A stretch of 64,000 bases of DNA from Salipiger sp. H15 (GTDB lineage: Bacteria; Pseudomonadota; Alphaproteobacteria; Rhodobacterales; Rhodobacteraceae). The notes under the pieces were generated by a model. The model made no database searches. It was not told the DNA's origin and saw nothing but the letters and a program-made list of their open reading frames with translations. This document shows, one piece after another, positions 5,789-26,637 of this stretch (positions are counted from its first letter, which is position 1; the number at the start of each line of letters is the position of its first letter). The position numbers and the translations under genes are program-made. The stretch spans positions 258,787 through 322,786 of the forward strand of contig NZ_CP123387.1 of assembly GCF_040409955.1 (NCBI RefSeq), in the 5' to 3' direction.

Positions 5789-5817
5789 TCGCAAACCTGT
5801 ATGAAAGGTCAGAAGAC

Positions 5818-6590: not shown

Positions 6591-7352
6591 CTAGCGCCAG
6601 AACACCAGCCTGCGTTCGAGCAGCGAGACCACCGCGAAGAAGCCGAGGCTGGCCACCGAGGCGACGAAGATCGCGGCCCAGACCTGCACGAAGTCGATGA
6701 CGATCACCGCCTGGTAGATCACCCAGCCGAGCCCGCCGTAGGCGCCGAGCATCTCGGTCACGATGGCGACGATCAGGCTGCGCACGGTCGACAGGCGCAT
6801 CCCCGACAGGATCAGCGGCAGGGCGGTCGGCAGGCGCAGCTTCCACAGGATCGCGGCCCGGCTCGCGCCGAAGCTGCGCATCAGGTTCACCGAGCGCTCG
6901 TCCACCCGGTCGAAGCCGGCGAGCGCCGAGACGAACATGGTGAAGCTCACGGCCACGGCGACCATCACGATCTTCGAGCTGACGCCCATGCCGAACCACA
7001 GCAGGATCAGCGGCGAGAAGGCCACCACGGGCACCGAATTGACCGCCGTGGCCGCGGGCACGATCACCTTGCGCAGCGGCGGCACCAGCGTGACGGCCAG
7101 CGCGAGGCCGACGCCGATGGCGCCGCCGAGCAGGTAGCCGGCCAGCGCCTCGCCCAGCGTGTAGGCCGCGGCCTCGCCGAGCACGGCGCGGGCGGTCCAG
7201 AACCGCGCGAGGATCTCCGAGACCGCGGGCAGGATGTAGCTCGGCAGGTCGAAGAGCCGGGCCGCCAGCTCCCAGACCGCGAAGAGGGCGAGCCCGCCGA
7301 AGATGCCGCGGGCAAGCGCGTGCGGCGAGGGGGTCATGGGATCTTGGGTCAT
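6591..7352 (-). CDS. ABC transporter permease (SsuC/ThiX-like)
   Basis: Inner-membrane permease of 253 residues from the nitrate/sulfonate/taurine/thiamine-precursor family of ABC importers. It has about six hydrophobic segments, and the cytoplasmic coupling loop ends with GASRAAILWKLRLPTALPLILSG. This matches the EAA-loop pattern of this family. It overlaps the upstream permease gene by four bases, and the two permeases form a heterodimer. Last gene of the ten-gene minus-strand operon. Confidence 0.9.
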   Translation of the reverse strand: MTQDPMTPSPHALARGIFGGLALFAVWELAARLFDLPSYILPAVSEILARFWTARAVLGEAAAYTLGEALAGYLLGGAIGVGLALAVTLVPPLRKVIVPAATAVNSVPVVAFSPLILLWFGMGVSSKIVMVAVAVSFTMFVSALAGFDRVDERSVNLMRSFGASRAAILWKLRLPTALPLILSGMRLSTVRSLIVAIVTEMLGAYGGLGWVIYQAVIVIDFVQVWAAIFVASVASLGFFAVVSLLERRLVFWR

Positions 7353-8152
7353 GCGCTTTCACCTCCCCAGAAGACGATGCGCTTCTCGGCAAGGCCGATG
7401 GCGGCGAAGAAGGCGACGCCGAGCACCGCCGAGCACAGGATGCTGGCCCAGATGGCGACCATGTTCTCGGCATACATGCCCTGCAGCAGCAGCACGCCGA
7501 GCCCGGTGGTGTCGCCGAACCATTCGCCCACCACGGCCCCGGCGAGGCCGAGCGCCGAGGCGATGCGCAGCGCGACGAAGATGTGGGGCAGGGCGGTCGG
7601 GAAGCGCAGCTTGCGCATGATCTCGCGCTCGGAGGCGCCGAAGCTGCGCAGGAGCTGCACCTGCCTTTCGTCCACCGCCCGCATCCCGAGCAGCGCGTTC
7701 ACGGTGACCGGGAAGAAGGTCAGGTAGAAGACGATCACCGCCTTGGCGAGGATGGTGTTGCCGAACCACATGACGACCAGCGCGCCGAAGGCGATGACCG
7801 GGATCGTCTGCGAGACGATGAAGATCGGGAAGATGGTCTCGCGCAGGACGCGCAGCCGCGAGAAGGCAATGCCGATCCAGATGCCGAAAAGCGCCCCGGC
7901 CCCGAAGCCGAGCAGCGTCTCGAGCCCGGTGCGGATCATCGCGTCGCGATAGGCGGCGGGGGTGCGCAGGATCGCCTCGATCACCGCGCTCGGCCGGGGC
8001 AGCACGTAGGGCCGGATGCCGAAGGTGACGACCAGCAGCTCGACCGCGAGCAGGACCGCCGCCAGCGCGGCGGCGCCCTTCAGCAGCGGAACCACGGCGC
8101 CGAAGCGCCGTGTCCCGGGCAGCGAGCCCGCAGTATTGGCCTGCACCGTCAT
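7349..8152 (-). CDS. ABC transporter permease (SsuC/ThiX-like)
   Basis: Second inner-membrane permease of the NMT1/THI5-type importer, 267 residues. The coupling loop GASEREIMRKLRFPTALPHIFVALRI resembles that of its partner, and both loops suit one ATPase. Six or so membrane segments start at about residue 27. It overlaps the binding-protein gene by four bases (ATGA) and its partner permease by four bases, indicating translational coupling. Having two non-identical permeases rather than a homodimer is less common in this family. Confidence 0.9.
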   Translation of the reverse strand: MTVQANTAGSLPGTRRFGAVVPLLKGAAALAAVLLAVELLVVTFGIRPYVLPRPSAVIEAILRTPAAYRDAMIRTGLETLLGFGAGALFGIWIGIAFSRLRVLRETIFPIFIVSQTIPVIAFGALVVMWFGNTILAKAVIVFYLTFFPVTVNALLGMRAVDERQVQLLRSFGASEREIMRKLRFPTALPHIFVALRIASALGLAGAVVGEWFGDTTGLGVLLLQGMYAENMVAIWASILCSAVLGVAFFAAIGLAEKRIVFWGGESA

Positions 8153-9165
8153 TCCGGCAGGCGCTCGGCCGCGGGGATCGCGTCGACGAACTGGCTGTCG
8201 AAGGCGCTCTCGAGGTCGATCGGGCCGCCAAGCACCTCGTAATCCACGAGGATCTTGTGCGCGCTCGCCACCGCGTCCATGTCGATGGTGAAGAGGCCCT
8301 TCTCGGCGGCGGCCCCGGCCAGCATGATCTTCTCGACCTCGTCGAGCATGAACTCCTGGTGCGGGCGCTCGAGCGTCGGCGCCTCCTTCAGGATCAGGTC
8401 GATCGCGGCCTGCTTGTCGGCGAAGGCGTCGAGCCAGCCCTTGACCGAGGCGCGCACGAAGCCCTGCACGAGGTCGGGATGCGCCGCCGCGAAGTCGTTG
8501 CCGACGATCAGCGTGTCACGCGGGAAGGAGACGCCGAAATCCTCGGGCACGAAGCGCTTGAGGTTCTCCTCGCCGACGCGCTGCATCAGCGTGTAATACT
8601 CGTTGTAGCGGGTGGCGGTGACCACGTCGACCTGGCCGTCGACGAAGGGTGTGACCGAGACCTGCTGCGGCTGGATGTTCATGTCCGTGCGGTCGATGCC
8701 ATTGGCGGCCAGCATGCCGAAGAGCACGTAGTTGGCGCCGGTGAACCAGGTGGTGATCGCCGCGTCCTTGAAGTCCGCGATCTCCTGCACCGGGCCGTCG
8801 GCCTTGGAGACGAAGACGAAGGGGGTCTCCTGGTGCGAGATGCCGATGCAGGTGATCGGCAGGCCCTTCTCGATGGCGGCGAACACCGAGTCCGTGCCGC
8901 CCGACAGGCCGAAGGTGTCGGCGCCGGTCGCCACGAGGTTCTCGGTCAGCAGGTTCGGCCCGCCCGGGTTGATCGTGAGGTCAAGGCCCTCGTCCGCGTA
9001 GTAGCCCTTTGCCTTGGCAATGTAGAAGCCGACGAACTGGGCCTGCGGCAGCCACTTGAGGCGCAGCGAGACGGGCTCGAGATCGGCCGCGTGCACGGCG
9101 GGCGCGGCAAGCATCGCGGCCGAGGCGGCCAGACCGAGCGTGGAGAGGAAGGAACGTCTTTTCAT
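8149..9165 (-). CDS. ABC substrate-binding protein, NMT1/THI5 (ThiY-like) family, Tat signal
   Basis: Periplasmic solute-binding protein of 338 residues. It opens with a twin-arginine-type signal (KRRSFL) and an Ala-rich core, with likely cleavage near VHAAD at about residue 27. The mature start LKWLPQAQFVGFYIAKAKGYY is the classic ThiY/NMT1 signature, a family that binds pyrimidine precursors of thiamine and related N-heterocycles. It lies in an operon with nucleoside hydrolase and carbamoylase-type genes, so a pyrimidine- or purine-like ligand is a reasonable inference. No thiamine biosynthesis gene is nearby, arguing for catabolism rather than salvage. Confidence 0.88.
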   Translation of the reverse strand: MKRRSFLSTLGLAASAAMLAAPAVHAADLEPVSLRLKWLPQAQFVGFYIAKAKGYYADEGLDLTINPGGPNLLTENLVATGADTFGLSGGTDSVFAAIEKGLPITCIGISHQETPFVFVSKADGPVQEIADFKDAAITTWFTGANYVLFGMLAANGIDRTDMNIQPQQVSVTPFVDGQVDVVTATRYNEYYTLMQRVGEENLKRFVPEDFGVSFPRDTLIVGNDFAAAHPDLVQGFVRASVKGWLDAFADKQAAIDLILKEAPTLERPHQEFMLDEVEKIMLAGAAAEKGLFTIDMDAVASAHKILVDYEVLGGPIDLESAFDSQFVDAIPAAERLPE

Positions 9166-9228
9166 CGCAGTACTCCATGTTGGGGGTGGACCCGGTTGGC
9201 CCGGGCTTGGTGGCTTTGACCCCGGGGT

Positions 9229-10068
9229 TCAGTGGGAGGCGGGGCCGAAGGTCTTCATGCTCTCTTCCTCGATCGCGTCGAGCAGCTCGCGCTTGAGGGA
9301 GATGAACTCGGGGGAGGTGACGAGGTCGGCGCCGCGCGGGCGCGGCAGGTCGACCTTGCGCGACAGCTTGATCGCGCCGGGCCGGGCGGTCATCACCAGC
9401 ACCTTGTCGCCAAGGAAGATCGCCTCGTCGACGTCATGGGTGATGAAGAGCACGGTGCGCCGGTGCTTCTGCCAGACGTCGAGCAGCCAGCGCTGCATCA
9501 TGGTGCGGGTCAGCGCGTCGAGCGCGCCGAAAGGCTCGTCTAGCAGCATCAGGTCGCGCTTGAACATGAAGGTGCGCATCAGCGCGACGCGCTGGCGCAT
9601 GCCGCCCGACAGCTCGTGCGGGTACTTGTCGGCAAAGCCGGCAAGGCCGAACTCGGGCAACATCCGCTGCGCCTCGGCGCGCGCCTCGGCCCGGTTCGCG
9701 CCCTCGATCTCCAGCGGCAGGATGGCGTTGTCGATCACGTTGCGCCAGGCCAGCAGCAGGTCGCGCTGCGGCATGAAGGACACCTGCCCGAGCAGCTGGC
9801 GCGCATGCACCGACTGGCCCTCGAAACGCAGCACCGAGCCCGCGTCGGGCTCCTCGAGCCCGGCGACGATGTTGAACAGCGTGGACTTGCCGCAGCCCGA
9901 GGGACCGACCACCGTGACGAACTCTCCGGGCTGGACCGCGAGATCCACGCCGTTGAGCGCCTGCACCTCGCCGAAGGTCTTCGAAAGCCTGCGCAGGTCG
10001 AGGATCGGCTCTTCGGCAGGGGTCATGGCGGGCTCCGTCGTGCTGGGGTGGGTCATTGGCATGTTCAT
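9229..10068 (-). CDS. ABC transporter ATP-binding protein (SsuB/ThiZ-like)
   Basis: ATPase subunit of the NMT1/THI5-type importer, 279 residues. It has Walker [10 protein letters not shown] at residues 55-63, signature LSGGM at 153-157, Walker B LMLLDEPF at about 173-180, and an H-loop ITHD. The start at 10068 overlaps the nucleoside hydrolase stop by four bases (ATGA). An in-frame ATG at 10026 is an alternative that would remove a 14-residue low-complexity lead. A 63-base gap separates it from the binding-protein gene, the largest in this operon. Confidence 0.9.
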   Translation of the reverse strand: MNMPMTHPSTTEPAMTPAEEPILDLRRLSKTFGEVQALNGVDLAVQPGEFVTVVGPSGCGKSTLFNIVAGLEEPDAGSVLRFEGQSVHARQLLGQVSFMPQRDLLLAWRNVIDNAILPLEIEGANRAEARAEAQRMLPEFGLAGFADKYPHELSGGMRQRVALMRTFMFKRDLMLLDEPFGALDALTRTMMQRWLLDVWQKHRRTVLFITHDVDEAIFLGDKVLVMTARPGAIKLSRKVDLPRPRGADLVTSPEFISLKRELLDAIEEESMKTFGPASH

Positions 10069-11006
10069 GTGGTCAGGGCCCTTTCGAGCATGCGGAAGAA
10101 GGCGTCGTTGTCGGCGCTCTCGATGATGCGCGCGTTCTCGATGTACTCCGGCCAGCGCGAACCGAGCCTCGCCGGGTGGATGGCGGAATGGCCGCGGGTG
10201 ATCGTTCCGCCGGTCTCGATCCGCACCACCGCCCGGCGCGCGGCGGTGATGATCGACGGGTCGATCGCGCAGGCGCAGGTCAGCGTGTCGGGGTGGGTGC
10301 AGATCACCTTGCCGTAGCGCTGCTCGGCGACCTTGCGCGGCGTGGCCGAGACCTTGCGGTAGAACTCGGTCAGCGGGGTCGCGTGCGCGTCGAGCCGGGC
10401 CAGCTGCGCCGCGTCGAAGACCGACGAGCCCAGGGTCAGCGTCCAGGTCGAGAGCGTGATCTCGAACCCGGCGCGGAAGACGATCGCCGCCGCCTCGGGG
10501 TCGATGTAGAAGTTGAACTCGGCGCAGGGGGTGACGTTGCCGACCGAGTTGTCGGTGCCGCCCATGATCCACAGGTGCTTGAGCGCCTTGGCGATGCGCG
10601 GCTCGCGGGTGACCGCGAGCGCGAGGTTGGTCAGCGGCGCCTGCGCGATCATCTCGATCTCGCCCGGCGCCGCCATGATCCGCTCGATCAGCGCATCCAC
10701 CGCGTGCATCTCCTCGGGGCGCTGGCGGGCGCGCGGCAGGTCCGCGCCGCTCATCCCGTCCGCCCCGTGCATCTGCGCCGGCTCCCAGTCGGCCAGCAGC
10801 GGCCGCCGCGCGCCGAGATAGACCGGCACCTCGCCGGACTTGCCCGCGGCCTCGATGGTCGCGAGCGCGTTCTCGGCCTGCTGGTCGAAATCGACATTCC
10901 CGTTGCAGATCGTCACGGCCTCGAGTGTCACGCCCGGCGTCTTCATCGCCAGCAGCAGCGAGAAGGTGTCGTCCCCCGCGGTATCGGTGTCGATGATGAG
11001 GCGCAT
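10065..11006 (-). CDS. Nucleoside hydrolase (inosine-uridine preferring family)
   Basis: Cleaves the N-glycosidic bond of a ribonucleoside to free base plus sugar. The 313-residue protein begins with the calcium-binding Asp motif IIDTDTAGDD at residues 4-13, has the LTNLALA stretch in the middle, and the LWIMGGT and ECNFY-like AEFNFYIDPEAA region near residue 155-170 characteristic of the family. Length is normal. The start at 11006 overlaps the cupin stop (TGATG) and gives the canonical N-terminus; the frame is open further upstream but without similarity. Placed between a heterocycle-type ABC importer and an amidase, it suggests that the imported compound is a nucleoside or an analogue. Confidence 0.88.
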   Translation of the reverse strand: MRLIIDTDTAGDDTFSLLLAMKTPGVTLEAVTICNGNVDFDQQAENALATIEAAGKSGEVPVYLGARRPLLADWEPAQMHGADGMSGADLPRARQRPEEMHAVDALIERIMAAPGEIEMIAQAPLTNLALAVTREPRIAKALKHLWIMGGTDNSVGNVTPCAEFNFYIDPEAAAIVFRAGFEITLSTWTLTLGSSVFDAAQLARLDAHATPLTEFYRKVSATPRKVAEQRYGKVICTHPDTLTCACAIDPSIITAARRAVVRIETGGTITRGHSAIHPARLGSRWPEYIENARIIESADNDAFFRMLERALTT

Positions 11007-11932
11007 CAGTAGAACTCGAACCCCATGGTGCGGGCGTGGTAGTAGAAGCCGCCGTCCTGCACGATCAGGAACTCGGCGCGGCTGTCGCCGTCGTTGTGGT
11101 GGCTGTGCTTGGCGGCCGGCGGGGTCAGCAGCGTCGCCCAGGGGCTCCAGTCGCATTTCCGGTCATCGACCATCGAGTAGGCCGGATCCCCGGCGACGGC
11201 GAGCGTCAGGGCCGCCGAGTTGTGCTTGTGCGGCGGCTGGAAGCTGTGCGGCTTCAGCGTGTTGAGCGACAGGGTTAGCGTCGGGGCGATGTTGCGGCTC
11301 GCCTCGGTCTGCGCGGCGGAGAAGATCAGCGCGTGGCCCGAGGTCGTGGCATTGGCGCCCCGCTGGTAGACGGTGTCGAGCTGGTGCTCGATCTCGGCGG
11401 CGGGGAAATGCACGAGCCCGGTCGCGGCCTCGGCGCCGGTGATCGGCGCGGCCTTCTCGAAGGCCAGCTGCGGATCGTTCCCGACGGCCCAGAACACGGC
11501 GGTCTCGGTCGCCTCGATCCGGCTCTCCACCCCGCCCGGCAGCAGGAAGACGTCACCCTTGCCGAGCGTCGCGGTCTCGGCGCCGACGGTCAGCGTGGCG
11601 CTCCCCTCGATCACGTACCAGATCGAGGCGGTGCAGGTGAGCGTGGTGTCGAGGCTCGCGCCCGCCAGCACGGTCGCGTAGCGCGCCAGCATGAGCGGGG
11701 TGGTGGCGGGGAAGGGGCAGCCGAGCTCGGCGGAAAGGTCGCAGAGCACCCAGCCGGTCGCGTCCTTGGCCATCGCCTTCGCCGGCTCGTCGCGCAGGAT
11801 CCGCGGCGGCACCGGCGGCAGCTTGATGTTGAAGGCGTTGCCCGAGTTGAAGTAGCGCCCGCGGGCCTCGGCCTCGTTCTTCGGCGCGCGCGGCAGTTGC
11901 ACCGGCATTTCGGCCATATCGTTGATCGTCAT
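11006..11932 (-). CDS. Bicupin protein (gentisate-dioxygenase-like fold), function unknown
   Basis: A 308-residue protein with two cupin repeats. The first (about 85-150) contains IWYVIEGSATLTVG and GDVFLLPGGVE; the second (about 215-295) contains PHSFQPPHKHNSAALTLAV and PPAAKHSHHNDGD. The second repeat keeps the His cluster (HKH, HSHH) expected for a metal site. The first lacks an obvious His pair, so only one site is probably catalytic. It could be a ring-cleaving dioxygenase or a non-oxidative cupin. The start at 11932 overlaps the amidase stop by four bases. Confidence 0.75.
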   Translation of the reverse strand: MTINDMAEMPVQLPRAPKNEAEARGRYFNSGNAFNIKLPPVPPRILRDEPAKAMAKDATGWVLCDLSAELGCPFPATTPLMLARYATVLAGASLDTTLTCTASIWYVIEGSATLTVGAETATLGKGDVFLLPGGVESRIEATETAVFWAVGNDPQLAFEKAAPITGAEAATGLVHFPAAEIEHQLDTVYQRGANATTSGHALIFSAAQTEASRNIAPTLTLSLNTLKPHSFQPPHKHNSAALTLAVAGDPAYSMVDDRKCDWSPWATLLTPPAAKHSHHNDGDSRAEFLIVQDGGFYYHARTMGFEFY

Positions 11933-13209
11933 GAGAGATCTCCTTTGTCTCGGGTGGCGGAGGCGGCGTGCAGGCAGGTGTCGAGCAGCACCTGGGCCCC
12001 GGCGGCCACGTGCGCCGGTTCGGCCCATTCCTCGGGGTGATGGCTGAGCCCGCCGCGGCAGGGGATGAAGATCATCGCCGAGGGCGCGAGCGGGGCCATG
12101 TGCCGGGCGTCGTGCCCGGCGGCGGAAAGCAGGTCTGTGGCCGGCAGGCCGCGCGCGGCGGCGCTGCCGAGGATCGCGCGGCGCAGCGCGGGCGAGAAGG
12201 TGTTGGCCGGGGCGTCGACCATGGACCGCACCTCGACGGCGCAGGGCGCCGCCACGGCGCGCGCGGCCGCCTCGAGCGCGAGGCCGGTCCGGTCCAGCAC
12301 GTCGTTCCGGGGGTGGCGCAGGTCGATGCGGAAGCGCACCGTCGCGGGCACGACCGAGGGCGCGTTCGGCAGCACCTCGACCCGGCCGATGGTGAAGCGG
12401 ATGTCGGGCCCGGCTTGAAGCGCGGCCTCCTGCATGGCCAGCGCGACGCGGGCAAAGGCCTGCACCGCGTCGGCCCGGCGCTCCATGGGCTCGGTCCCGG
12501 CATGGGCCTCGCGGCCCGAGAGGGTGACCTCGTAGGTCTTCTTGCCCTGGATGCCGGTGACCGCGCCGATGACCAGCGCCTCGCGCTCGAGGTGGTCGGC
12601 CTGTTCGATGTGCGGCTCGATGTAGGCGTGCAGCGGGAAGCCCGGCGCGATGCGCGGCACCCCGGGGAAGGCCTCGGCGAGGCGCTCGAGTTCGGAGGCG
12701 ACGCTCACCCCGGCGGCGTCGGTGACCGCGCCGACCTGCGCGAGGCTGCGATGGCCCGAGAACACCTCGGATCCCATCATGCCGGGCGCGAAACGGCCGC
12801 CCTCCTCGTTCATCCAGGCGACGAGGGTGATCGGGCGGGGCGGGACGATGCCCCTGTCATGCAGCGTCTCGAGCACCTCGAAGGCGGCGAGCACGCCGAA
12901 GACACCGTCGAAGCGCCCGCCGGTCGGCTGGCTGTCGAGATGCGAGCCGATCAGCACCGGCGCGCCCCCGGACGTGCCGGGCAGGGTCAGGAAGAGGTTT
13001 CCCGCCGTGTCGAAACTCGGCGAAAGCCCGATGGCCTCGCCCCAGCCGATCAGCCGCGCCATGGCGGCACGGTCCTCGGCGGAGAGGGCCTGCCGGTCGA
13101 CGCCGCCGTCGGCGCGGGCGCCGATCTCGGCCATCGACATGAGCCGCGACCAGAGCCGCGCCCCGTCGATCCGGGGAAGGGAAGGCTGGGAGAGGTCCAT
13201 CGGGCGCAT
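11929..13209 (-). CDS. M20-family Zn hydrolase, N-carbamoyl-amino-acid/ureidopropionase/allantoate amidohydrolase type
   Basis: Binuclear-metal amidase of 426 residues. The family block IGSHLDSQPTGGRFDG (residues 88-102) supplies metal ligands H90 and D101. NEEGGRF near 135 supplies the bridging Glu, and HIEQ (about 205) and a C-terminal LSHHPEE supply further ligands. AGHDARHMA is the typical substrate loop. Members hydrolyse N-carbamoyl bonds left after ring opening of pyrimidines, hydantoins or purine-derived ureides. Context with the nucleoside hydrolase supports breakdown of a nitrogen heterocycle. A second ATG four codons in is equally possible as the start. Confidence 0.87.
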   Translation of the reverse strand: MRPMDLSQPSLPRIDGARLWSRLMSMAEIGARADGGVDRQALSAEDRAAMARLIGWGEAIGLSPSFDTAGNLFLTLPGTSGGAPVLIGSHLDSQPTGGRFDGVFGVLAAFEVLETLHDRGIVPPRPITLVAWMNEEGGRFAPGMMGSEVFSGHRSLAQVGAVTDAAGVSVASELERLAEAFPGVPRIAPGFPLHAYIEPHIEQADHLEREALVIGAVTGIQGKKTYEVTLSGREAHAGTEPMERRADAVQAFARVALAMQEAALQAGPDIRFTIGRVEVLPNAPSVVPATVRFRIDLRHPRNDVLDRTGLALEAAARAVAAPCAVEVRSMVDAPANTFSPALRRAILGSAAARGLPATDLLSAAGHDARHMAPLAPSAMIFIPCRGGLSHHPEEWAEPAHVAAGAQVLLDTCLHAASATRDKGDLS

Positions 13210-13212
13210 CGC

Positions 13213-14091
13213 TCAGTCCGTCCGCATCACCTGGCCGGGGTCGGCCCGCGCGTCGCGGCGGCCCCAGGCCCCGGCCTCGACCATGGCGAGGAACTCGGCG
13301 AGGTGGCTGTTGAACAGCCCCGGCTCCTCGAGGTTCAGCGTGTGGCCGGTCTTGGGCAGGACCAGCAGTCCCGAGGCGGGCATGGTCTTCTTGAGGAAGA
13401 TGCCCGGCTGCAGGCAGTGATCGTCCTCGTCCCCGACCATGATCAGCGTCGGCAGGACGCAGGCTTTGAGCCCGTCCTCGAGATCCCAGAACGAGGGACG
13501 CCGCGCCTGCACGCCGCGCATGGTGTTGGCGGCCCCCACGCTGTCATGCCGGGCAAGCCGGGTGACGAACTTCAGGTGCTCGCGCGGGTCCTTGTTCTCG
13601 AACTGCACGCGGCTGGCGCCGCGGCCGTAGATCTCGGCAAATCCGGCCGGATCGGCCTCGAACTTCTCGGCCACGGTGAGCGAGACGCCGCGGAAATACT
13701 CCTCTGTCTCCTTCTCGCAGCCATAGCCCGCCCCCGCCACGGTCAGCGACAGCGCCCGCCCGGGATAGCTGAGGCCGAAGTGCACGGTGGCGAAGCCGCC
13801 CATCGACAGGCCGACGATATGCGCCTTCTCGATGCCGAGGTGGTCGAGCACCGCCACCGCGTCATCGACCGCGATGGCCTGGGAATATTTCCCGACATCG
13901 GCCGGGATGTCCGACGGCGCATAGCCGCGCGCCGCGTAGGTGATGCAGCGGTGGCGCCGCGCGAAGGCGCTCATCTGCGGCTCCCACGCGTCGTAGTTGC
14001 CGCCGAACTCGTGGATGAAGAGGATCGGCGTTCCGGCCTCTCCCGCGGTCTCGTAGTAGAGTTTCGTGCCGTCCTTGGCGGTGGCGTACAT
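13213..14091 (-). CDS. Alpha/beta hydrolase
   Basis: A 292-residue alpha/beta-hydrolase-fold enzyme. The oxyanion region is ILFIHEFGG (about residue 24), the nucleophile elbow is GLSMGG (about residue 97), the acid is probably in MVGDEDD near 230, and the His in KTGHTLNLEEP near 257. The ATG at 14091 yields a normal N-terminus (MYATAKDGTKLYYE); the open frame further upstream is not supported. Could hydrolyse an ester, lactone, amide or C-C bond. It is the second of two unrelated alpha/beta hydrolases in the divergent operon pair (the other is at 22662). Confidence 0.87.
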   Translation of the reverse strand: MYATAKDGTKLYYETAGEAGTPILFIHEFGGNYDAWEPQMSAFARRHRCITYAARGYAPSDIPADVGKYSQAIAVDDAVAVLDHLGIEKAHIVGLSMGGFATVHFGLSYPGRALSLTVAGAGYGCEKETEEYFRGVSLTVAEKFEADPAGFAEIYGRGASRVQFENKDPREHLKFVTRLARHDSVGAANTMRGVQARRPSFWDLEDGLKACVLPTLIMVGDEDDHCLQPGIFLKKTMPASGLLVLPKTGHTLNLEEPGLFNSHLAEFLAMVEAGAWGRRDARADPGQVMRTD

Positions 14092-14101
14092 GGGAGCCCC
14101 C

Positions 14102-16014: not shown

Positions 16015-16026
16015 CGTGGTCTCCTA

Positions 16027-16057
16027 GTGTATGCAAAGTTTCGCTATCTGCATACAC
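16027..16057. promoter_or_regulatory. Inverted repeat in divergent promoter region, probable operator
   Basis: GTGTATGCA at 16027-16035 is repeated in inverted orientation as TGCATACAC at 16049-16057 (perfect 9-bp arms, 13-bp spacer). It starts 12 bases upstream of the SDR start codon. A further half-site TGCATACC is at 16235-16242, nearer the plus-strand ABC operon. GTAT-type arms suit a GntR or similar dimer. The regulator at 23559 is the nearest candidate; its own leader carries GTATA and GTATAC at 23472 and 23494. The 16015-16323 gap holds no gene that I can support. Confidence 0.6.
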
Positions 16058-17394: not shown

Positions 17395-17442
17395 CCAACA
17401 AGAGCTGCAAGGCCATCCCCATCCCCGACAGGAGAGCTTGAC

Positions 17443-18738
17443 ATGAAACGCCTATTCCTTGCCGTCCTGGCCGGCGGCACCGCGCTGAGCGCCGTCCCGG
17501 CGCTTGCGCAGGACGCGGCCTGCACCGCCGAGCCGGTCACCCTGCGCATCCTGCGCACGCCCGGCAACTACCCCTATCCCGCCGCCATGGAAGCCTGGCA
17601 GAAGGAGCACCCCTGCGTCTCCTTCGAGGTGAACGAGGTGCCCTTTGCCCAGCTCGGCGACACGATCGCCGTGCAGGCCGCATCGGATGATCCGCCCGAC
17701 ATCCTGGTCTACGACGGGCCCAACACCCAGTCCTATGCCAAGGCGGGGATCCTGCTGCCGGTCACCGACTACCTGCCTGAAGGCTGGGCCGACGACATCC
17801 TGCCCGCGACCCGGGCCGAGCACAGCTACGAGGGCGAGGTCTACTCGCCGGGCATCGAGCAGACCACCGTCGCGATGTACTACAACAAGAGCCTGACCGA
17901 CGCCGCCGGCATCACCCCGCCGCAGACGCTCGACGAGGCCTGGACCTGGCCCGAGGCGCTCGCGGCGTTCAAGGCCTGCCAGCAGGGCGATCCGGGGGCA
18001 CCGACCGTCTGGGGTCTCGGGCCGACCCGCTTCGGCAACGGCCAGCCCGGCCTCGTCTACCAGGACCTGATCTACCAGCGCTCGAACGGCGATCCCGAGG
18101 CGGATCCCGAGAGCTCGGCCTACAAGACCTTCTGGGCGATGGCGCCGGACGGCTCGACGGTCGAGGGCTATCTCGACACGCCCGAGGCGATCGAGGCGCT
18201 GACCTTCTACCGCGCGCTCTTCAACGAGGAGGCCGTGGCCCCCAAGGTCGGCATCCCCAACGCCTTCTTCGACGGCAAGGCCTGCTTCTACATCGACACC
18301 CCGGCGGCCGGCTCGGCGCTGCTGAAGGATCCGGTGATCGACTGGGGCATCACCCCGATCCCCTACTTCAAGACCCCGGTGGTGCACACAGGATCGACCA
18401 CCATCGGCGTGACCGCGCGCTCGAAGAACCCCGAGATCGCGGCGCAGTTCGCGGTCGACATGAGCTGGGGCGAGCTGGCCTACATGAACGTCAGCCAGCG
18501 CGGCAACCTGCCGACCCTGAAGTCGCTCTTCGACCGCTTCCCGGTGTACCAGGACTACCCGATGAAGGTCTTCGTCGACCAGCTCGAGCACTGGGGCCAG
18601 CCGCGTCCGCCGAGCCCCTACTTCGCCCAGTACGACCGCGTCGTGACCGACGCGATCCGCTCGGTGGCCTTCGGGGGTGACCCCGAGGAGGCGATGCAGA
18701 ACGCCGAGCGCGAGGTCGCCCGGGCGATGCGCCGCTGA
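17443..18738 (+). CDS. ABC sugar-type substrate-binding protein
   Basis: Periplasmic binding protein of 431 residues (extracellular solute-binding protein family 1). A signal peptide (MKRLFLAVLAGGTALSAVPALA) is cleaved at about residue 22. The mature protein has the usual VTLRILRTPG start, the DPPDILVYDGPNTQSYAKAG block and SPGIEQTTVAMYYNKSL, typical of CUT1 binding proteins. There are four cysteines in the mature chain, so a disulfide is possible. A strong hairpin follows the gene and could favour expression of the binding protein over the permeases. Confidence 0.9.
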   Translation: MKRLFLAVLAGGTALSAVPALAQDAACTAEPVTLRILRTPGNYPYPAAMEAWQKEHPCVSFEVNEVPFAQLGDTIAVQAASDDPPDILVYDGPNTQSYAKAGILLPVTDYLPEGWADDILPATRAEHSYEGEVYSPGIEQTTVAMYYNKSLTDAAGITPPQTLDEAWTWPEALAAFKACQQGDPGAPTVWGLGPTRFGNGQPGLVYQDLIYQRSNGDPEADPESSAYKTFWAMAPDGSTVEGYLDTPEAIEALTFYRALFNEEAVAPKVGIPNAFFDGKACFYIDTPAAGSALLKDPVIDWGITPIPYFKTPVVHTGSTTIGVTARSKNPEIAAQFAVDMSWGELAYMNVSQRGNLPTLKSLFDRFPVYQDYPMKVFVDQLEHWGQPRPPSPYFAQYDRVVTDAIRSVAFGGDPEEAMQNAEREVARAMRR

Positions 18739-18755
18739 CCAGATCCTCCCTGACT

Positions 18756-18785
18756 GCCGGGCACCGTGACGGTGCCCGGCCCTTT
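18756..18785 (+). terminator. Intra-operon stem-loop (attenuator-type terminator)
   Basis: GCCGGGCACCG at 18756-18766 pairs perfectly with CGGTGCCCGGC at 18770-18780 across a 3-base loop, followed by CCCTTT. It stands between the binding-protein and permease genes. Such hairpins often produce excess binding-protein mRNA by partial termination or by protecting the 3' end. Confidence 0.7.
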
Positions 18786-18805
18786 CCCCGAATTCCGGAG
18801 CCGGC

Positions 18806-19741
18806 ATGACCGCGATAGACCGACAGATGACGGCCCCCAGCCTGGACCGTCGCCCCGACCGCACCGCGCGCCAGCGCCGCGACACGCGCACGGCCTTCGC
18901 CTTTCTCGCGCCCTTCCTGCTGCTCCTGCTGATCTTCCAGTACCTGCCGCTGGCGATGATGGCGAAGAACGCCTTCATGGACTACTCGCTGCTCAACCCC
19001 GGCGCGGCCAAGTTCGTCGGGCTGCTGAACTTCGAGGACATGATCCACTTCGACGACGCGCGCGAGAGCCTTGCGGCGACCTTCCTCTTTGCCCTCGTCG
19101 TGGTGCTGATCGTCATCCCGCTGGGCTTCGTCCTCGCGCTCTTCCTCAATTCGAGCCTGCCCGCGCGCGGCGTCGTGCGCACCATCATCATGCTGCCCGT
19201 GGTGACCTCGGCGGTCGTCGTGGCGACCATGTGGAACTTCCTGCTCGACCCGTCGAACGGGCTGATCAACGGGGTCATGTCGCTGCTCGGCCTGCCGCGC
19301 CAGCCTTTCCTGACCTCGCCGAACCAGGCGCTGATCATGATCTCGGTGATGACCGCCTGGCAGCAGGTCGGCTTTGCCGCGATCCTCTTCCTCGGCGGCC
19401 TGCAGGGCGTGCCGAAGGAGCTGGCCGAGGCGGCGCGGATCGACGGCGCGACGCGCTGGCAGGTGCTGTGGAACATCACCGTGCCGCTGCTGTCGCGCAC
19501 CACGCTCTTTGTCGTGGTGATCATGACTGTCTTCTCTCTGCAGGCCTTCGCCCCGGCCTTCCTGATGACCGACGGCGGCCCGCAGGACAGCACCAACCTC
19601 ATCGTCTACCACATCTACAAGATGGCCTTCGTGATGCAGAACGCGGGCTATGCCTCGGCGCTGTCGGTGGTGCTGCTGCTGATCGTTCTCGGCATCTCGC
19701 TGCTGCAGATGTGGCTTCTCCGAGCGAAGTGGAACTACTGA
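18806..19741 (+). CDS. ABC sugar-type permease (MalF/UgpA type)
   Basis: Inner-membrane permease of 311 residues with about six membrane helices. The first follows an Arg-rich cytoplasmic lead at residue 30. The coupling loop EAARIDGATRWQVLWNITVPLL (about residues 208-229) is the EAA motif that docks on the ATPase. Ends with a one-base overlap with the next permease (TGATG), so expression is coupled. Part of the CUT1-type importer encoded from 16324. Confidence 0.92.
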   Translation: MTAIDRQMTAPSLDRRPDRTARQRRDTRTAFAFLAPFLLLLLIFQYLPLAMMAKNAFMDYSLLNPGAAKFVGLLNFEDMIHFDDARESLAATFLFALVVVLIVIPLGFVLALFLNSSLPARGVVRTIIMLPVVTSAVVVATMWNFLLDPSNGLINGVMSLLGLPRQPFLTSPNQALIMISVMTAWQQVGFAAILFLGGLQGVPKELAEAARIDGATRWQVLWNITVPLLSRTTLFVVVIMTVFSLQAFAPAFLMTDGGPQDSTNLIVYHIYKMAFVMQNAGYASALSVVLLLIVLGISLLQMWLLRAKWNY

Positions 19742-20580
19742 TGACCGCCCTGCGCAAACCGCTTGCCCTCAGCCTCGTCCTGCTGCTGATCCTCGCCTGC
19801 TTCTTCGCGCCCTTCCTGTGGATCGTGTCGAACTCGTTCAAGCCGCAGCTCGGCATCTTCGCCGATGTCACCCCGATCAGCTGGCGCACCTTCCTGCCGC
19901 TCGAGCCGGTGCTCGAGAACTACCGCACGCTCTTCGAGCGCACCAACATCCTGCGCGCGCTGCTGAACACGGCGATCGTCTCGGCGGGGCAGGTGGCGCT
20001 GACCCTCGTGCTGTGCGCGATGGCCGCCTACGCGCTGACCCGCATCCGCTTCCGCGGCGCCAAGGCGGTCTTCGTGGTGATCCTGCTGACCTTCCTGCTG
20101 CCGGTCGAGGCGATGCTCGTGCCGCTCTTCCAGGTGGTCTCGGGGCTGGGGCTGAACAACACGCTGCTCGGAGTGATGATCCCCTGGATCGCCTCGCCCT
20201 TCGGGCTCTTCCTGCTCAAGCAGGCCTTCGAGGAACTGCCGCGCGATCTCGAGGACGCGGCGCGGATCGACGGGGCCGGGCACGTCCGCATCTTCGTCTC
20301 GGTGATCCTGCCCAACGTGAAGGTGCCGCTGCTGACGCTGGGCCTCGTGACCTTCCTGTTTTCCTGGAACAGCTTCCTGTGGCCGCTGGTCATCGCGCAG
20401 AGCCCCGACATCCAGCTCATCCAGGTGGCCATCGCGCAGCAGGGCTCGCCCACGCAGCTGCCGAACTGGGGCGAGACCTTCGCCGGCGCCACCGTCGCAA
20501 CGCTGCCGCTCATCCTGCTTTTCCTGCTGCTGCAGAAGTACTTCACGCAGGGCATGGCGATGAGCGGCATCAAGGGCTGA
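19741..20580 (+). CDS. ABC sugar-type permease (MalG/UgpE type)
   Basis: Second permease of the importer, 279 residues. It has an N-terminal helix (about 8-28), a periplasmic loop with the SWRTFLPLEPVLENYRTLFE pattern common to MalG-type proteins, and the EAA coupling loop ELPRDLEDAARIDGAGHVRI at about 165-185. C-terminus FTQGMAMSGIKG is the classic MalG-type ending. The ATG shares its first base with the upstream stop. Confidence 0.93.
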   Translation: MTALRKPLALSLVLLLILACFFAPFLWIVSNSFKPQLGIFADVTPISWRTFLPLEPVLENYRTLFERTNILRALLNTAIVSAGQVALTLVLCAMAAYALTRIRFRGAKAVFVVILLTFLLPVEAMLVPLFQVVSGLGLNNTLLGVMIPWIASPFGLFLLKQAFEELPRDLEDAARIDGAGHVRIFVSVILPNVKVPLLTLGLVTFLFSWNSFLWPLVIAQSPDIQLIQVAIAQQGSPTQLPNWGETFAGATVATLPLILLFLLLQKYFTQGMAMSGIKG

Positions 20581-20614
20581 CGCCCGACTCCACACACCCA
20601 GAGGACCTCCGACC

Positions 20615-21388
20615 ATGACCGATTACCCGAAACCCGAGTGCTATTCCGACGGCGAGTGGGAGGCCCGCGTCTCGCTGGCCGCCGCCTACCGCATGGTGGC
20701 GCGGCTGGGGCTCGATGACCTCATCTACAACCACATCTCGATGCGCGTGCCGGGCACCTCGGACCAGTTCCTGATCAACCCCTACGGCCTGCTCTTCAGC
20801 GAGATCACCGCCTCGTCGCTGGTCAAGATCAACACGCGTGGCGAGGTGATCGAGGAGACCGAGCACACCGTCAACAAGGCCGCCTTCGTGATCCATGCCG
20901 CGGTGCACAAGTCGAGCGAGACCGCGCATTGCGTGCTGCACACCCACTCCGACGCCTCGACGGCGGTTTCCGGCCAGCCGGACGGGCTGCTGCCGCTGAG
21001 CCAGTTCGCCATGCGCTTCTACAACCGGCAGGGCTTCCACGACTACGAGGGCGTGGCGATCGACGAGGCCGAGCAGCAGCGCATCGTCGCGCACCTGGGC
21101 GACAACCCGGTCATGCTGATGCGCAACCACGGCATCCTCACCGTCGGGCGCACCGCGGGCGAGGCCTTCATGCTGCTCTACTATTTCGAGCGCGCGGCGA
21201 AGATCCAGCTGCAGATGCAGGCCGCCTGCGCCTCGGGCATCCCGCTGGTGATCCCGGACCACGACGTCTGCGAGAAGGCGGCGCGGCAGTTCTGGGAGCT
21301 CAAGGGCGACATCCTCATCCCCGGCGAGCGTGAATGGCCGGCGCTGATGCGCGATCTCGACCGCGTCGATCCGGGCTACCGCGCATGA
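20615..21388 (+). CDS. Class II aldolase/adducin-family protein
   Basis: A zinc-dependent class II aldolase-fold protein, 257 residues. Zinc ligands are suggested by HTHSDAS (about residues 109-115) and the NHG motif (RNHGILTVG, about 170-178). The NHIS near residue 46 and the NPYGLLF block are standard. Members are sugar-phosphate aldolases or epimerases, or catalyse decarboxylation/dehydration without a phosphate; the adducin-like extension (YYFERAAKIQLQMQAA) suggests the latter group. It could cleave the sugar part released by the nucleoside hydrolase in the divergent operon. The stop overlaps the next start by four bases. Confidence 0.85.
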   Translation: MTDYPKPECYSDGEWEARVSLAAAYRMVARLGLDDLIYNHISMRVPGTSDQFLINPYGLLFSEITASSLVKINTRGEVIEETEHTVNKAAFVIHAAVHKSSETAHCVLHTHSDASTAVSGQPDGLLPLSQFAMRFYNRQGFHDYEGVAIDEAEQQRIVAHLGDNPVMLMRNHGILTVGRTAGEAFMLLYYFERAAKIQLQMQAACASGIPLVIPDHDVCEKAARQFWELKGDILIPGEREWPALMRDLDRVDPGYRA

Positions 21389-22665
21389 GCCGCCAGATCC
21401 GTTTCGGCCTGTTCCTGCTCGGCACCGGCAGCCACATCTCGGGCTGGCGGATGCCGGGGGCGATCGACGGGTTCGAGGACATCGCCGAGATCACCGCGAT
21501 CTGCCAGGAGGCCGAGCGCGGGCTCTTCGACCTGATCTTCATGGGCGACAACCTCAATGCCGATCCCTCGGCGCACCCGTCCTACTGCTCGCGGCTCGAG
21601 CCGCTGACCATGCTCTCGGCGGTGGCGATGGCGACAAGGCACGTGGGGCTCGGGGCGACCTCCTCGACCACCTACGGCGATCCCTGGACGCTGGCGCGCG
21701 GCTTCGCCTCGCTCGATCACATCTCGGGCGGGCGCGCGGCGTGGAACTCGGTCACCACCTCGAACCCGCAGGCGGCGGCCAATTTCGGCACCACCCACCC
21801 CGACCACGCCCGCCGCTACGAGATGTCGGCCGAGTTCATCGAGGTGGTGAAGAAGCTCTGGGGCGCCTGGGACGAGGGCGCGCTGGTGAAGGATCCCGAG
21901 AGCGGCACCTATTTCGACGCGGGCAGGATCCACGCCATCGACCACGAGGGACCCTTCTTCAAGGTCAAGGGGCCGGTGAACATCTCGCGCCCGCCGCAGG
22001 GACGGCCGCTGATCCTGCAGGCCGGGGGCTCCGAGCCCGGGCAGGAGCTGGCGGCGAAACATGCGGACGTCGTCTTCACCGTGACGCAGGACCGCGCCGA
22101 GGCGGCGGAGTTCTACGCCGGGCTGAAGGCGCGCCTGCCGAAGAACGGCCGCAGCGAGAGCGATCTCGTCATCCTGCCCGGCGTGATGCCGGTGGTCGGC
22201 CGCACCGAGGCCGAGGCCCGCGCCAAGCTTGCCCGCCTGATGAGCTTCGTCGATGACGAGACCGCGCTCGGCATGCTCTCGGAGCGGTTCAACACCGACC
22301 TCCGCGGCCATGACCTCGACGGGCCGATCCCCGACCTCGGCGAGAACGACGCCTACCACGCCTTTGCCAAGGCCATGCTCTCGAAGGCCAAGCGCGAAAA
22401 CATGACGCTGCGCGACCTCTACTCGCTGGTGGCGGCCGCGCGCGGGCACTGGGTGCTCTGCGGCTCCGCCGAGCAGGTGGCCGACACGTTGCAGGAGTGG
22501 TTCGAGAGCGGCGCGGCGGACGGGTTCAACGTCATGCCCGGCTGGTTCATGGACGGGTTCACCGACTTCATCGACCTTGTGCTGCCCATCCTGCAGGAGC
22601 GCGGCCTCTACAAGACCGCCTATGCCGAGGGCACGCTGCGCGACAAGCTCGGTCTGCCCGCTTGA
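21385..22665 (+). CDS. LLM-class flavin-dependent monooxygenase, NtaA/SnaA/DszA type
   Basis: A luciferase-like FMNH2-dependent monooxygenase of 426 residues. Diagnostic blocks are LEPLTMLSAVAMATRHVGLGATSSTTYGDPWTLAR, then FASLDHISGGRAAWNSVTTSN near residues 110-130, and LILQAGGSEPGQELAAKHAD near 210, which together define the nitrilotriacetate/EDTA/DBT-sulfone monooxygenase group. These enzymes need a separate flavin reductase, and none is encoded nearby. The ATG at 21385 overlaps the aldolase stop (ATGA); the frame is open upstream but unsupported. With the following alpha/beta hydrolase it recalls the RutA-RutD pairing of pyrimidine breakdown, although RutA itself is a different subgroup. 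Confidence 0.88.
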   Translation: MSRQIRFGLFLLGTGSHISGWRMPGAIDGFEDIAEITAICQEAERGLFDLIFMGDNLNADPSAHPSYCSRLEPLTMLSAVAMATRHVGLGATSSTTYGDPWTLARGFASLDHISGGRAAWNSVTTSNPQAAANFGTTHPDHARRYEMSAEFIEVVKKLWGAWDEGALVKDPESGTYFDAGRIHAIDHEGPFFKVKGPVNISRPPQGRPLILQAGGSEPGQELAAKHADVVFTVTQDRAEAAEFYAGLKARLPKNGRSESDLVILPGVMPVVGRTEAEARAKLARLMSFVDDETALGMLSERFNTDLRGHDLDGPIPDLGENDAYHAFAKAMLSKAKRENMTLRDLYSLVAAARGHWVLCGSAEQVADTLQEWFESGAADGFNVMPGWFMDGFTDFIDLVLPILQERGLYKTAYAEGTLRDKLGLPA

Positions 22666-23447
22666 TCCGCCACGAGGCCGATACGCCTGCCGGCCCGGTC
22701 CGGATGACCGCGGCAGGCGGGCAGGGGCGTCCGCTCCTGCTGGTGCACGGCTGGGGCGGGCAGGGGGCGCAATGGGACGCGCTGCTGCCCGGGCTCGCCG
22801 CGCGCTTCGCAGTCCACGTCGCCGACCTGCCGGGCGGCCCCGGCGCGCCGCTCTCCGGCCCGGTCGACATGGCGAGCCTCGGGCAGGGGCTGGCGCGGCT
22901 TCTGGAGGCGGCGGACCTTCGCGGCGCGCTGCTCGTCGGGCACTCGATGGGCGGGCCGGTGATCGTCGAGGCGGCGCTTGCCGCCCCCGCGCGGGTCGCC
23001 GGGCTGCTGGGGCTCGACACGCTTGCCGACCGCGCCTTCTACGGCGGCAGCAGCCCCGCGGTGATGGCCGCCCGCCGCGCCGGCTTCGCCGCCGATCTGC
23101 CCGGGCAGACGCGCGCCATGATCCGGGCGATCGCCGCCCCCGCCACGCCCGAGGCCACGGTCCAGGCGATCTCTGCCGACGTGCTCCGCGCGCGGGCCGA
23201 AGACCTTCTGGCGCTGCGCGACGCGCTCTTTGGCTGGCGGGCCGGGGACCGGGTGCCGCGGCTCGGGCCGCCGCTGCGGCTGCTGACCTCGGCCGAGGTC
23301 GCCGCGGCCCATGCCCGCGACCCTCTGCCCTGCCTCGCCGATGTGCCCGAAACCGTCTACGGAACGGGCCATTTTCCCCAGATCGAAGCCCCGGACCGGC
23401 TCCTTCCGGCCCTGCTGGCTGAACTTGACCAATTTGGAATTGACTGA
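22662..23447 (+). CDS. Alpha/beta hydrolase (TTG start)
   Basis: An alpha/beta-hydrolase-fold enzyme of 261 residues. Motifs are LLLVHGWGG at about residues 25-33, nucleophile elbow VGHSMGG at about 90-96 and a His in GTGHFPQIEAP near the end. The TTG at 22662 overlaps the monooxygenase stop (TTGA) and gives the expected lead with AGPVRMTAAGG before the first strand. The ATG at 22704 would shorten the lead by 14 residues. Translational coupling supports TTG. Its partner is probably the monooxygenase, whose product it may hydrolyse. Confidence 0.83.
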   Translation: MIRHEADTPAGPVRMTAAGGQGRPLLLVHGWGGQGAQWDALLPGLAARFAVHVADLPGGPGAPLSGPVDMASLGQGLARLLEAADLRGALLVGHSMGGPVIVEAALAAPARVAGLLGLDTLADRAFYGGSSPAVMAARRAGFAADLPGQTRAMIRAIAAPATPEATVQAISADVLRARAEDLLALRDALFGWRAGDRVPRLGPPLRLLTSAEVAAAHARDPLPCLADVPETVYGTGHFPQIEAPDRLLPALLAELDQFGID

Positions 23448-23558
23448 GATGAATGCCGTGGGGGAGGATCTGTATATTCCAATTCGCTTTTGGGTATACT
23501 GACACCGCCTTTCCCCTCGGCTCATTCCGGACGTCTCCCTGATGCAGGATCCCATCTA

Positions 23559-24260
23559 ATGAACCAGATCATCGACACGCGACCGGACAAGGCGCGGCTG
23601 CGCCAGCCGACCCGCTCCGAAGAGCTGCAGGACGACCTCAAGCGGCTGATCGTCGAGGGGGAAATGAAGCCCGGCGACCGGCTCGACGAGACCGAGATCG
23701 CCAAGCGCTTCGCCGTCTCCCGCACGCCCGTCCGCGAGGCGATCAAGGGGCTCGTGGCCAGCGGCCTCGTCGAGGTGCGCGGGCGGCAGGGCACCTTCGT
23801 TGCGACCCTCTCCATCCCGATGCTGATCGAGATGTTCGACCTGATGGCGGCGCTCGAAGGTCTCTGCGCCCGGCTCGCCGCGCGGCGCGCCACCCGCGAG
23901 GAGAAGGAGCGGATGCTCGAGATCCAGGCCCGGCTCGAACAGGCCTTCACCGACAACGACCCCGAGGCCTTCTACGCGATAAACGAGGAATTCCACGACC
24001 TGCTCTACATGGCCGGGCACACGCATTTCCTTGCCGACCAGACCGTCGCGCTGCGGCTGCGGCTGTCGCCCTACCGCCGGCAGGTGACCTTCCAGCCCGG
24101 CAAGATGCGCGCGACGCTGACCGAGCACCGGCGGATCATCGAGGCCATCGACGCGGGCGATCCCGACGAGGCGATGTCGGCCGCCAGCGAGCACGTCCGC
24201 CTGCTGGGCGATCACCTCTCGGATTTCATCGCGACGATCCCGCCGCATCTGCTGGGATGA
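23559..24260 (+). CDS. GntR-family transcriptional regulator (FCD subfamily)
   Basis: A 233-residue regulator. The winged helix-turn-helix covers residues 20-85 (DETEIAKRFAVSRTPVREAIKGL, VEVRGRQGTFV). The FCD domain follows with FDLMAALEGLCARLAARR, and the metal/ligand His in NEEFHDLLYMAG and EHRRIIEAID. A 111-base gap from the hydrolase, with a TATACT box at 23495-23500, suggests its own promoter. The open frame reaches 23490, but the ATG at 23559 fits the family. Probable controller of one or both divergent operons (6591-16014 and 16324-23447). Confidence 0.87.
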   Translation: MNQIIDTRPDKARLRQPTRSEELQDDLKRLIVEGEMKPGDRLDETEIAKRFAVSRTPVREAIKGLVASGLVEVRGRQGTFVATLSIPMLIEMFDLMAALEGLCARLAARRATREEKERMLEIQARLEQAFTDNDPEAFYAINEEFHDLLYMAGHTHFLADQTVALRLRLSPYRRQVTFQPGKMRATLTEHRRIIEAIDAGDPDEAMSAASEHVRLLGDHLSDFIATIPPHLLG

Positions 24261-26576: not shown

Positions 26577-26637
26577 AGCGTGTCAGGGAAACCGCGGGCC
26601 GGGTCCTCCGGCCCGCAGGGCAGCGCGCGAGACCGGC

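Follow-up and report, generated by a model that had tools for sequence, protein, structure and literature searches.

Comparison with described degradation pathways

The Rut pathway unites in one operon a two-component flavin mononucleotide (FMN) monooxygenase, an amidohydrolase, an alpha/beta hydrolase and an oxidoreductase, and the reductive pyrimidine route runs through dihydropyrimidine dehydrogenase, dihydropyrimidinase and beta-ureidopropionase. Vitamin B6 degradation in Mesorhizobium uses an aminotransferase, an SDR, a flavin monooxygenase of another family than NtaA, a class II aldolase-type decarboxylase and an alpha/beta hydrolase; the ThiXYZ-YlmB system salvages thiamin precursors with an NMT1-type importer and an M20-fold amidohydrolase. 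Riboflavin and lumichrome catabolism (Rca/Lum; PMC12746152) employs the NtaA-family enzyme RcaE at the sugar-base bond, with a cupin and an aldolase downstream, and the only breakdowns named as well characterized in the Discussion of that paper are those of B6, NAD+ and riboflavin. Here we compare these systems with a gene cluster located at 6591-24260 of a 64,000-nucleotide stretch of Salipiger sp. H15 (contig NZ_CP123387.1, positions 258,787 to 322,786), hereafter the window.

We think it rather probable that this cluster works as a single regulated catabolic unit, which one N-heterocyclic base, most likely of the pyrimidine type, can enter in two ways. Its minus arm (6591-16014) comprises ten genes, and six of the nine junctions between them overlap by 1-13 bp, the other three being spaced by 3, 10 and 63 bp. 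The plus arm (16324-24260) starts with an ATG at 16324 and brings eight more genes, that is 18 with both arms. An earlier sequence-only reading of this DNA had described two divergent arms, and the open reading frame layout together with Pfam and NCBIfam searches confirmed the arms, their coordinates and their gene families:

6591..7352, minus: permB, ABC permease of the NMT1-type importer (PF00528, 80.3 bits); adjoins permA and the NMT1 gene, conserved
7349..8152, minus: permA, ABC permease of the NMT1-type importer (PF00528, 98.5 bits)
8149..9165, minus: NMT1/THI5-type solute-binding protein (PF09084, 157.6 bits); presumed ligand a free pyrimidine-like base
9229..10077, minus: ABC ATPase of the NMT1-type importer (PF00005); SsuB/TauB-like, the matches shown all below cut-offs
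10065..11006, minus: nucleoside hydrolase, NH (PF01156, 267.9 bits)
11006..11932, minus: bicupin, distantly gentisate dioxygenase-like (Cupin_2 twice; HKH motif in the second domain)
11929..13209, minus: M20 hydantoinase/carbamoylase-family amidohydrolase, core (TIGR01879, 368.7 bits, cut-off 204; Peptidase_M20)
13213..14091, minus: abhA, alpha/beta hydrolase, core (Abhydrolase_1)
14102..15232, minus: pyridoxal phosphate-dependent aminotransferase, core (Aminotran_1_2; NF004870, 488 bits, cut-off 351)
15232..16014, minus: SDR oxidoreductase, core, first gene of the minus arm (adh_short; NF004779, 379.5 bits, cut-off 261)
16028..16056, no strand: operator TGTATGCA-N13-TGCATACA in the divergent promoter, a perfect dyad
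16324..17394, plus: CUT1-type ABC ATPase, UgpC/MalK-like (NF008653, 488.8 bits, cut-off 432)
17443..18738, plus: CUT1-type solute-binding protein (PF01547, SBP_bac_1, 88.9 bits); presumed ligand a nucleoside; co-lost with NH
18806..19741, plus: CUT1 permease 1 (PF00528, 62.1 bits); UgpA/GlcT-like below cut-off
19741..20580, plus: CUT1 permease 2; UgpE/GlcU-like in NCBIfam, 122 and 121 bits, below cut-off
20615..21388, plus: class II aldolase/adducin-family enzyme (Aldolase_II 166.9; NF005451, 341 bits, cut-off 207)
21385..22665, plus: ntaA, NtaA/DmoA-family FMN monooxygenase (TIGR03860, 516.3 bits, cut-off 279.7)
22662..23447, plus: abhB, second alpha/beta hydrolase, start codon uncertain (best family match 72.3 bits, below every cut-off)
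23559..24260, plus: GntR-FCD regulator (PF00392 and PF07729)

For CUT1 permease 2 and abhB the family call comes from NCBIfam matches below cut-off, and abhB is weakly conserved (37-44% identity in Rhizobiales). Rfam and tRNA scans of the 64-kb window gave no match.

The cluster shares with Rut the combination of a flavin monooxygenase, an amidohydrolase, an alpha/beta hydrolase and an oxidoreductase; compared with Rut, it has an NtaA-family enzyme and an M20 protein instead of RutB, and adds an aminotransferase, an aldolase, a cupin, NH and ABC importers. The RutA/RutD likeness that had been noticed earlier holds insofar as a monooxygenase accompanies an alpha/beta hydrolase, but not at the level of families: ntaA reaches 62.3 bits against RutA (TIGR03612, cut-off 498.3) and the two alpha/beta hydrolases 64.1 and 35.5 bits against RutD (TIGR03611, cut-off 238.5). 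None of the cluster genes scanned gave a match to an isochorismatase-family amidohydrolase of the RutB kind, the remaining genome being unsearched. As in the reductive route, the M20 enzyme relates to N-carbamoyl-beta-alanine amidohydrolase (8c46, 7.2e-81), whereas the family scans of the cluster genes, and of these only, returned neither dihydropyrimidine dehydrogenase nor dihydropyrimidinase. Its call as a carbamoylase-type amidase stands, the TIGR01879 hydantase match being above cut-off; the best score against allantoate amidohydrolase models was 412.7 bits, below the cut-off of 452. M20 residues H90, D101, E135, E136, H200 and H390 are invariant in 12/12 sequences, and we take the H, D, E, E, H set to be the metal site. 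In the PDB the bicupin matches gentisate dioxygenases with the order of the two domains exchanged, and its score against gentisate 1,2-dioxygenase (TIGR02272) was 51.6 bits, below the cut-off of 442.1.

All five enzyme types of B6 degradation occur in the window, which differs from it by an M20 enzyme, a cupin, NH and both importers; the aldolase matches Mlr6791, which we take to be a decarboxylase of the vitamin B6 pathway, only weakly (2z7b, 7.7e-9). Like ThiXYZ-YlmB, the cluster joins an M20-fold amidohydrolase to an NMT1-type importer whose binding-protein model is nearest a protein that binds formylaminomethyl-pyrimidine (FAMP), but its M20 falls in the carbamoylase branch and its companions are degradative. 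ntaA matches PDB 5w48 at 3.9e-56. Against the Rca/Lum system, the cluster's matches lack a P450, a Rieske protein and a thiamin-dependent enzyme, and the proposed N-glycosidic enzyme is NH, not a monooxygenase. Judged by gene families, the cluster is neither a Rut, a reductive pyrimidine, an allantoate nor a gentisate operon. By analogy its working would come closest to oxidative ring attack in the Rut manner mixed with B6-type handling of side chains and ring fragments. The sequence-only reading knew of no described pathway with the full set, and in agreement with it the set was not recognized in the searched literature, which left out most subscription journals.

Two proposed entrances, a putative base branch and one operator

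A cupin scan of GTDB contigs gave 29 loci in Salipiger, Alloyangia, Pseudooceanicola, Mangrovicoccus, Citreicella, Rhizobium, Neorhizobium, Shinella, Mesorhizobium and other genera. Because the core quartet SDR-aminotransferase-abhA-M20 and its divergent partner genes recur in 28 of them (L017 is broken at M20), the cluster is not a chance assembly, and the neighborhood conservation that the sequence-only reading proposed to check is there. An abhA scan (E 1e-110) found 11/394, 19/248 and, in the window's own family, 3/394 genomes, each family count including one genome already sampled. In the 30 regions fetched from it, four of which repeat earlier loci, M20 and the aminotransferase lie beside abhA in 30/30 and the SDR in 29/30. 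The final table holds 63 core-bearing clusters, namely 62 fetched loci and the window. It leaves out L141, L142, L143 and L145 (contigs shared with L031, L020, L028 and L019), L017 (its genome splits these genes over two contigs, one with NH and NMT1 and the other with ntaA and CUT1), L173-L175 (without a visible quartet, or from an unannotated record), L099 (contig of L025), L082 (a 59% relative at a contig edge), L078, L079 and distant sets. A subset of 44 clusters is defined by aldolase presence, so aldolase retention within it is no finding and fair aldolase counts refer to the 63 rows. Farther out, the quartet is absent from 17/18 loci of distant cupin relatives (36-52% identity; L060-L077, all but L060) and from 8/8 loci of abhA relatives at 49-53% (L102-L109, eight fetched of 12 matches); the reading frames listed for Microvirga L174, an abhA relative at 62%, include no adjacent M20 or aminotransferase.

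First, the presence of NH follows that of the CUT1 importer. The two are discordant in 2/63 clusters (L146 and L168), both of which carry an ECF importer instead, and concordant in all 44 aldolase-positive clusters (29 with both, 15 with neither). Within these 44, NH departs from the NMT1 importer 17 times (one of the 44 rows, L018, ends at a contig edge), from ntaA 16 times and from the cupin 12 times. On a tree of concatenated core proteins NH and CUT1 change five times each, all five jointly, a count made on one tree with some weak nodes (lowest support 0.02). Scars of the joint loss are left in three genomes: both NH ends with pieces of malK and cutG in L018, the NH tail with one malK piece in L028, and 27 residues near the cutG end in L014. 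When ten genomes were searched as a whole, five (G783, G784, G785, G599 and G567) lacked a CUT1 binding protein at E 1e-30 as well as any NH with more than 34% identity, and five (G000, G092, G786, G787 and G788) had both the NH orthologue and the CUT1 binding protein. Since concordance is near-perfect and joint losses left scars, the CUT1 importer and NH appear to form a nucleoside-entry module. The nucleoside-like substrate of the sequence-only reading is thus retained as far as the NH/CUT1 link goes, without its assignment of the aldolase to the sugar.

NH keeps the motif DTDTAGDD in 7/7 orthologues, where an N-terminal DTDxxGDD is presumably the nucleoside hydrolase signature. The four NCBIfam models that match it are every one nucleoside hydrolases; the nearest are UriH, RihC and RihA, all below cut-off, and NH fails the equivalog cut-offs of the pyrimidine-specific UriH (167 of 450 bits) and RihA (148.5 of 433 bits).

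Second, the NMT1 importer is separable from this module, as three clusters (L016, L021 and L060) keep CUT1 and NH without it; the L016 genome has a 47% NMT1 relative on the contig of the cluster. The window's protein belongs to the NMT1/THI5-like family (PF09084, cut-off 20.5 bits) and stays below cut-off for aliphatic sulfonate binding (TIGR01728, 53.2 against 163.5 bits). Structure prediction, a check suggested by the sequence-only reading, gave a model whose fold is nearest pyrimidine/thiamin binders, namely FAMP-binding and thiamin-bound proteins, from which we infer that this importer would be a second entry. A second NMT1-type binding protein, 46-47% identical, is encoded near the cluster in G784 (C57:11335-12291), G785 (C36:158679-159638) and G786 (C45:45947-46921), where an operator-like site (C45:47111-47139) stands beside the gene.

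Third, the aldolase follows ntaA, with 1/63 discordant clusters against 17/63 for NH, and this indicates that it does not serve the released sugar. The earlier proposal that the sugar part of a conjugate goes to the aldolase is contradicted by these counts. The aldolase is also intact in the three genomes with NH/CUT1 scars. Moreover, 20/21 Rhizobiales loci (L019-L039) carry aldII inside the NMT1-importer set, with the ATPase gene on one side and the binding-protein gene on the other, which ties the plus-arm aldolase to the NMT1 arm. In 14 of the 21 loci the gene after ntaA encodes a flavin reductase, which the window's cluster lacks. Methionine salvage also combines a nucleosidase, a class II aldolase, a cupin and an aminotransferase; this likeness was set aside, the cluster having no kinase or isomerase match and its aldolase not following NH.

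Fourth, both arms may answer to one operator. The dyad lies 13 bp upstream of the SDR start codon and, at up to 3 mismatches, is the sole match in the window and unique in the whole genome, in which the reversed-pattern control also gave 1 match. In the 150 bp upstream of the SDR, with shuffles as simple controls, it was found at up to 4 mismatches in 42/44 aldolase-positive clusters against 7/880 shuffled controls, and at up to 3 mismatches in 27/44 against 0/880; 1/18 aldolase-negative loci has it there. Extra copies precede the ATPase/NMT1 arm in several Rhizobiales loci. The GntR-FCD protein closing the plus arm is likely the one that reads this operator.

The catalytic lysine motif of the aminotransferase, K215 in SFSKW, is invariant in 12/12. 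Its K342 is invariant too, at a position matched by motif only, the PDB alignment ending before it, so that no claim is built on this residue. Enzymes of the aspartate-aminotransferase type usually have there a carboxylate-binding Arg, and a Lys in its place may go with an unusual amino donor or acceptor.

The core quartet in other company

The SDR-aminotransferase-abhA-M20 block looks like a wider catabolic core. The two clusters with an ECF importer (core, NH and ECF at 12402-16451 in L146 and 11567-15671 in L168) have an NH of the same family as the window's (54-58% identical) and SoxA-like and DAO-type flavoproteins; the L168 core is without SDR. The S component of their ECF importer is CD3073-like (137 bits, cut-off 180), and its coupling to NH could be a lead to the ligand of this uncharacterized family. 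A BMP-type importer, the quartet, a uridine-phosphorylase-like enzyme and DeoC occur together on plasmids of two strains that are near sisters in the core-protein tree, Rhizobium sp. CB3171 and CB3060. The phosphorylase-like gene (218.7 bits, cut-off 280.3) is 10 bp downstream of M20, and phosphopentomutase and thymidine phosphorylase (675 bits, cut-off 570.7) lie nearby; in CB3060 there is in addition an NMT1-type binding protein sharing 38% identity with that of the window. In-line sets of BMP, quartet, phosphorylase and DeoC genes span 2435-14544 in L172 and 4871-15544 in L176.

Elsewhere, nitrile hydratase genes adjoin the quartet's M20 (L162 7556-8296; L161 11871-13198), and a Mo-hydroxylase (L164 and L169), chlorohydrolase/deaminase-family enzymes (L164), an ATP-hydantoinase (L161) or an aldehyde dehydrogenase (L149 and L167, named by eye) stand beside the quartet. 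In L171 the company consists of a flavin reductase and an LLM monooxygenase that shares 36% identity with ntaA. All these neighbors would fit N-heterocycles and amides. An NCBIfam scan of a supposed tripartite-importer protein of L147 gave no match. Frames resembling a hydantoin racemase and a cyclic amidase, named by eye beside the L022 cluster, were rejected as chance neighbors because they are not among the frames listed for L023, L024 and L029.

Both flanks of the window's cluster hold other loci. On the left (1558-6519), a DctP binding protein, a zinc alcohol dehydrogenase, an SDR, an enolase-superfamily protein and a GntR-FCD regulator make up a separate sugar-acid locus; its GntR gene (5752-6519) faces the minus arm and was left out of the cluster. 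On the right (24360-32309), a TRAP permease with an NMT1_3 binding protein, two tandem isocitrate/isopropylmalate-type dehydrogenases and a DUF4147/MOFRL gene look like a tartrate- or hydroxy-acid-type locus.

Readings of the substrate

A catabolic unit with two entrances could work as follows. At the first entrance, CUT1 would import an N-riboside from which NH releases the base, the ribose being left to enzymes encoded elsewhere. At the second, the NMT1/THI5-type importer would take up the base in its free form or a closely similar pyrimidine. Oxidation of the base would fall to the NtaA-type FMN monooxygenase, helped by a flavin reductase; the class II aldolase-family enzyme would decarboxylate or cleave the product, with the bicupin acting too, and M20 would cut the opened ring at a ureido/carbamoyl or amide bond. 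AbhA would cleave a lactone, ester or enamide, the aminotransferase and the SDR would convert amine and aldehyde/alcohol groups, and GntR-FCD would control both arms via the one operator. Gene content, the way NH and CUT1 come and go together, the tracking of ntaA (and not NH) by the aldolase, the conserved operator and the intact catalytic motifs come from the comparison; a pyrimidine as the base, the order of the steps, the regulator that reads the operator and each substrate are inferred. A pyrimidine is suggested by the NMT1 fold, by UriH, RihC and RihA as the nearest models of NH, below cut-offs as they are, and by the company of the quartet with a uridine-phosphorylase-like enzyme, DeoC and thymidine phosphorylase.

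Several observations weigh against this scheme. G092, whose cluster is of the NH/CUT1 version, gave no ntaA match at E 1e-20 in a 95%-complete genome, so that either some clusters can do without the monooxygenase or it has a substitute or is missing from the assembly in this genome. Besides ntaA, the cluster has no recognizable dedicated ring-opening enzyme, and 3/44 aldolase-positive clusters lack the cupin. L018 is the sole case of the 44 in which neither importer's own binding protein was found; its cluster ends at a contig edge before the NMT1 gene and a 46% NMT1 relative adjoins it, so NMT1 presence cannot be judged there. Because their NH is of the same family, the ECF and CUT1 entrances are not fully independent. 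Finally, no NH and no nucleoside enzyme was noticed in 30/62 fetched core loci (15 with and 15 without aldolase), a count in which only NH was searched uniformly across loci; some of these loci have the nitrile hydratase, Mo-hydroxylase or chlorohydrolase-family neighbors, so the quartet could serve a common fragment instead of a nucleobase.

This last point leads to the alternative that survives best, though we regard it as unlikely: the quartet would be a general module for amide-containing fragments, the nucleoside link would be one front end among others, and the window's base would not be a pyrimidine (for instance a purine, deazapurine or pyridine nucleoside). The diverse front ends, with several NMT1-type, ECF and BMP importers, agree with it, as do the nitrile hydratase, Mo-hydroxylase, chlorohydrolase/deaminase-family and ATP-hydantoinase genes beside the quartet and the loci without a nucleoside gene. 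However, three importer types and two kinds of N-glycoside-cleaving enzymes are joined to the one core, which favors a nucleobase theme over other readings, and among named proteins the closest to both N-glycoside enzymes lean to pyrimidine nucleosides.

The breakdown of a thiamin- or vitamin-type pyrimidine (hydroxymethyl-, aminomethyl- or formylaminomethyl-pyrimidine), with the aminotransferase, the SDR and the aldolase-family decarboxylase working on the C5 side chain like their B6-pathway counterparts and NH acting on an unusual glycoside, seems to us quite improbable. The NMT1 model, the weak match of the aldolase to Mlr6791 and the short list of well characterized breakdowns in PMC12746152 speak for it. 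On the other side, the presence of NH, like that of the phosphorylase/DeoC variants, calls for an N-(deoxy)riboside, which thiamin pyrimidines are not known to form, and the models matching NH are all nucleoside hydrolases.

That NH cleaves a non-nucleoside and CUT1 imports an ordinary sugar, their linkage being regulatory only, is very unlikely: among the best 60 of 213 PDB matches, the named relatives of the CUT1 protein are mostly maltose-binding or other oligosaccharide-binding proteins, but the joint loss with scars in three genomes and the intact NH motif oppose it. A base-sugar conjugate whose sugar half is handled by the class II aldolase is largely refuted and hardly credible, for in spite of the NH-CUT1 linkage and of the aldolase adjoining the CUT1 permeases in the window, the aldolase goes with ntaA and not NH, survives the NH/CUT1 losses and sits among the NMT1-importer genes in Rhizobiales, and the cluster's family matches include no sugar kinase or isomerase.

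Together these comparisons leave a regulated unit for one N-heterocyclic base as our preferred reading. More tentatively, as a possibility that we would not call probable, it may belong to a new pyrimidine-type nucleobase route of Alphaproteobacteria, apart from the Rut, reductive and barbiturate routes, its core quartet supplied with nucleosides in at least three ways, through CUT1 with NH, ECF with NH, or BMP with phosphorylase and DeoC, and with the NMT1/THI5 importer as a base scavenger. The question of the substrate becomes directly testable, since a single operator, two binding proteins and a hydrolase are available for it and one entrance has been lost naturally in some genomes. If true, a route of nucleoside and nucleobase degradation would be added for plant-associated and marine Alphaproteobacteria, and a role would be suggested for the orphan families PRK06225 (aminotransferase), PRK06125 (SDR) and PRK07044 (aldolase) and for the orphan bicupin.

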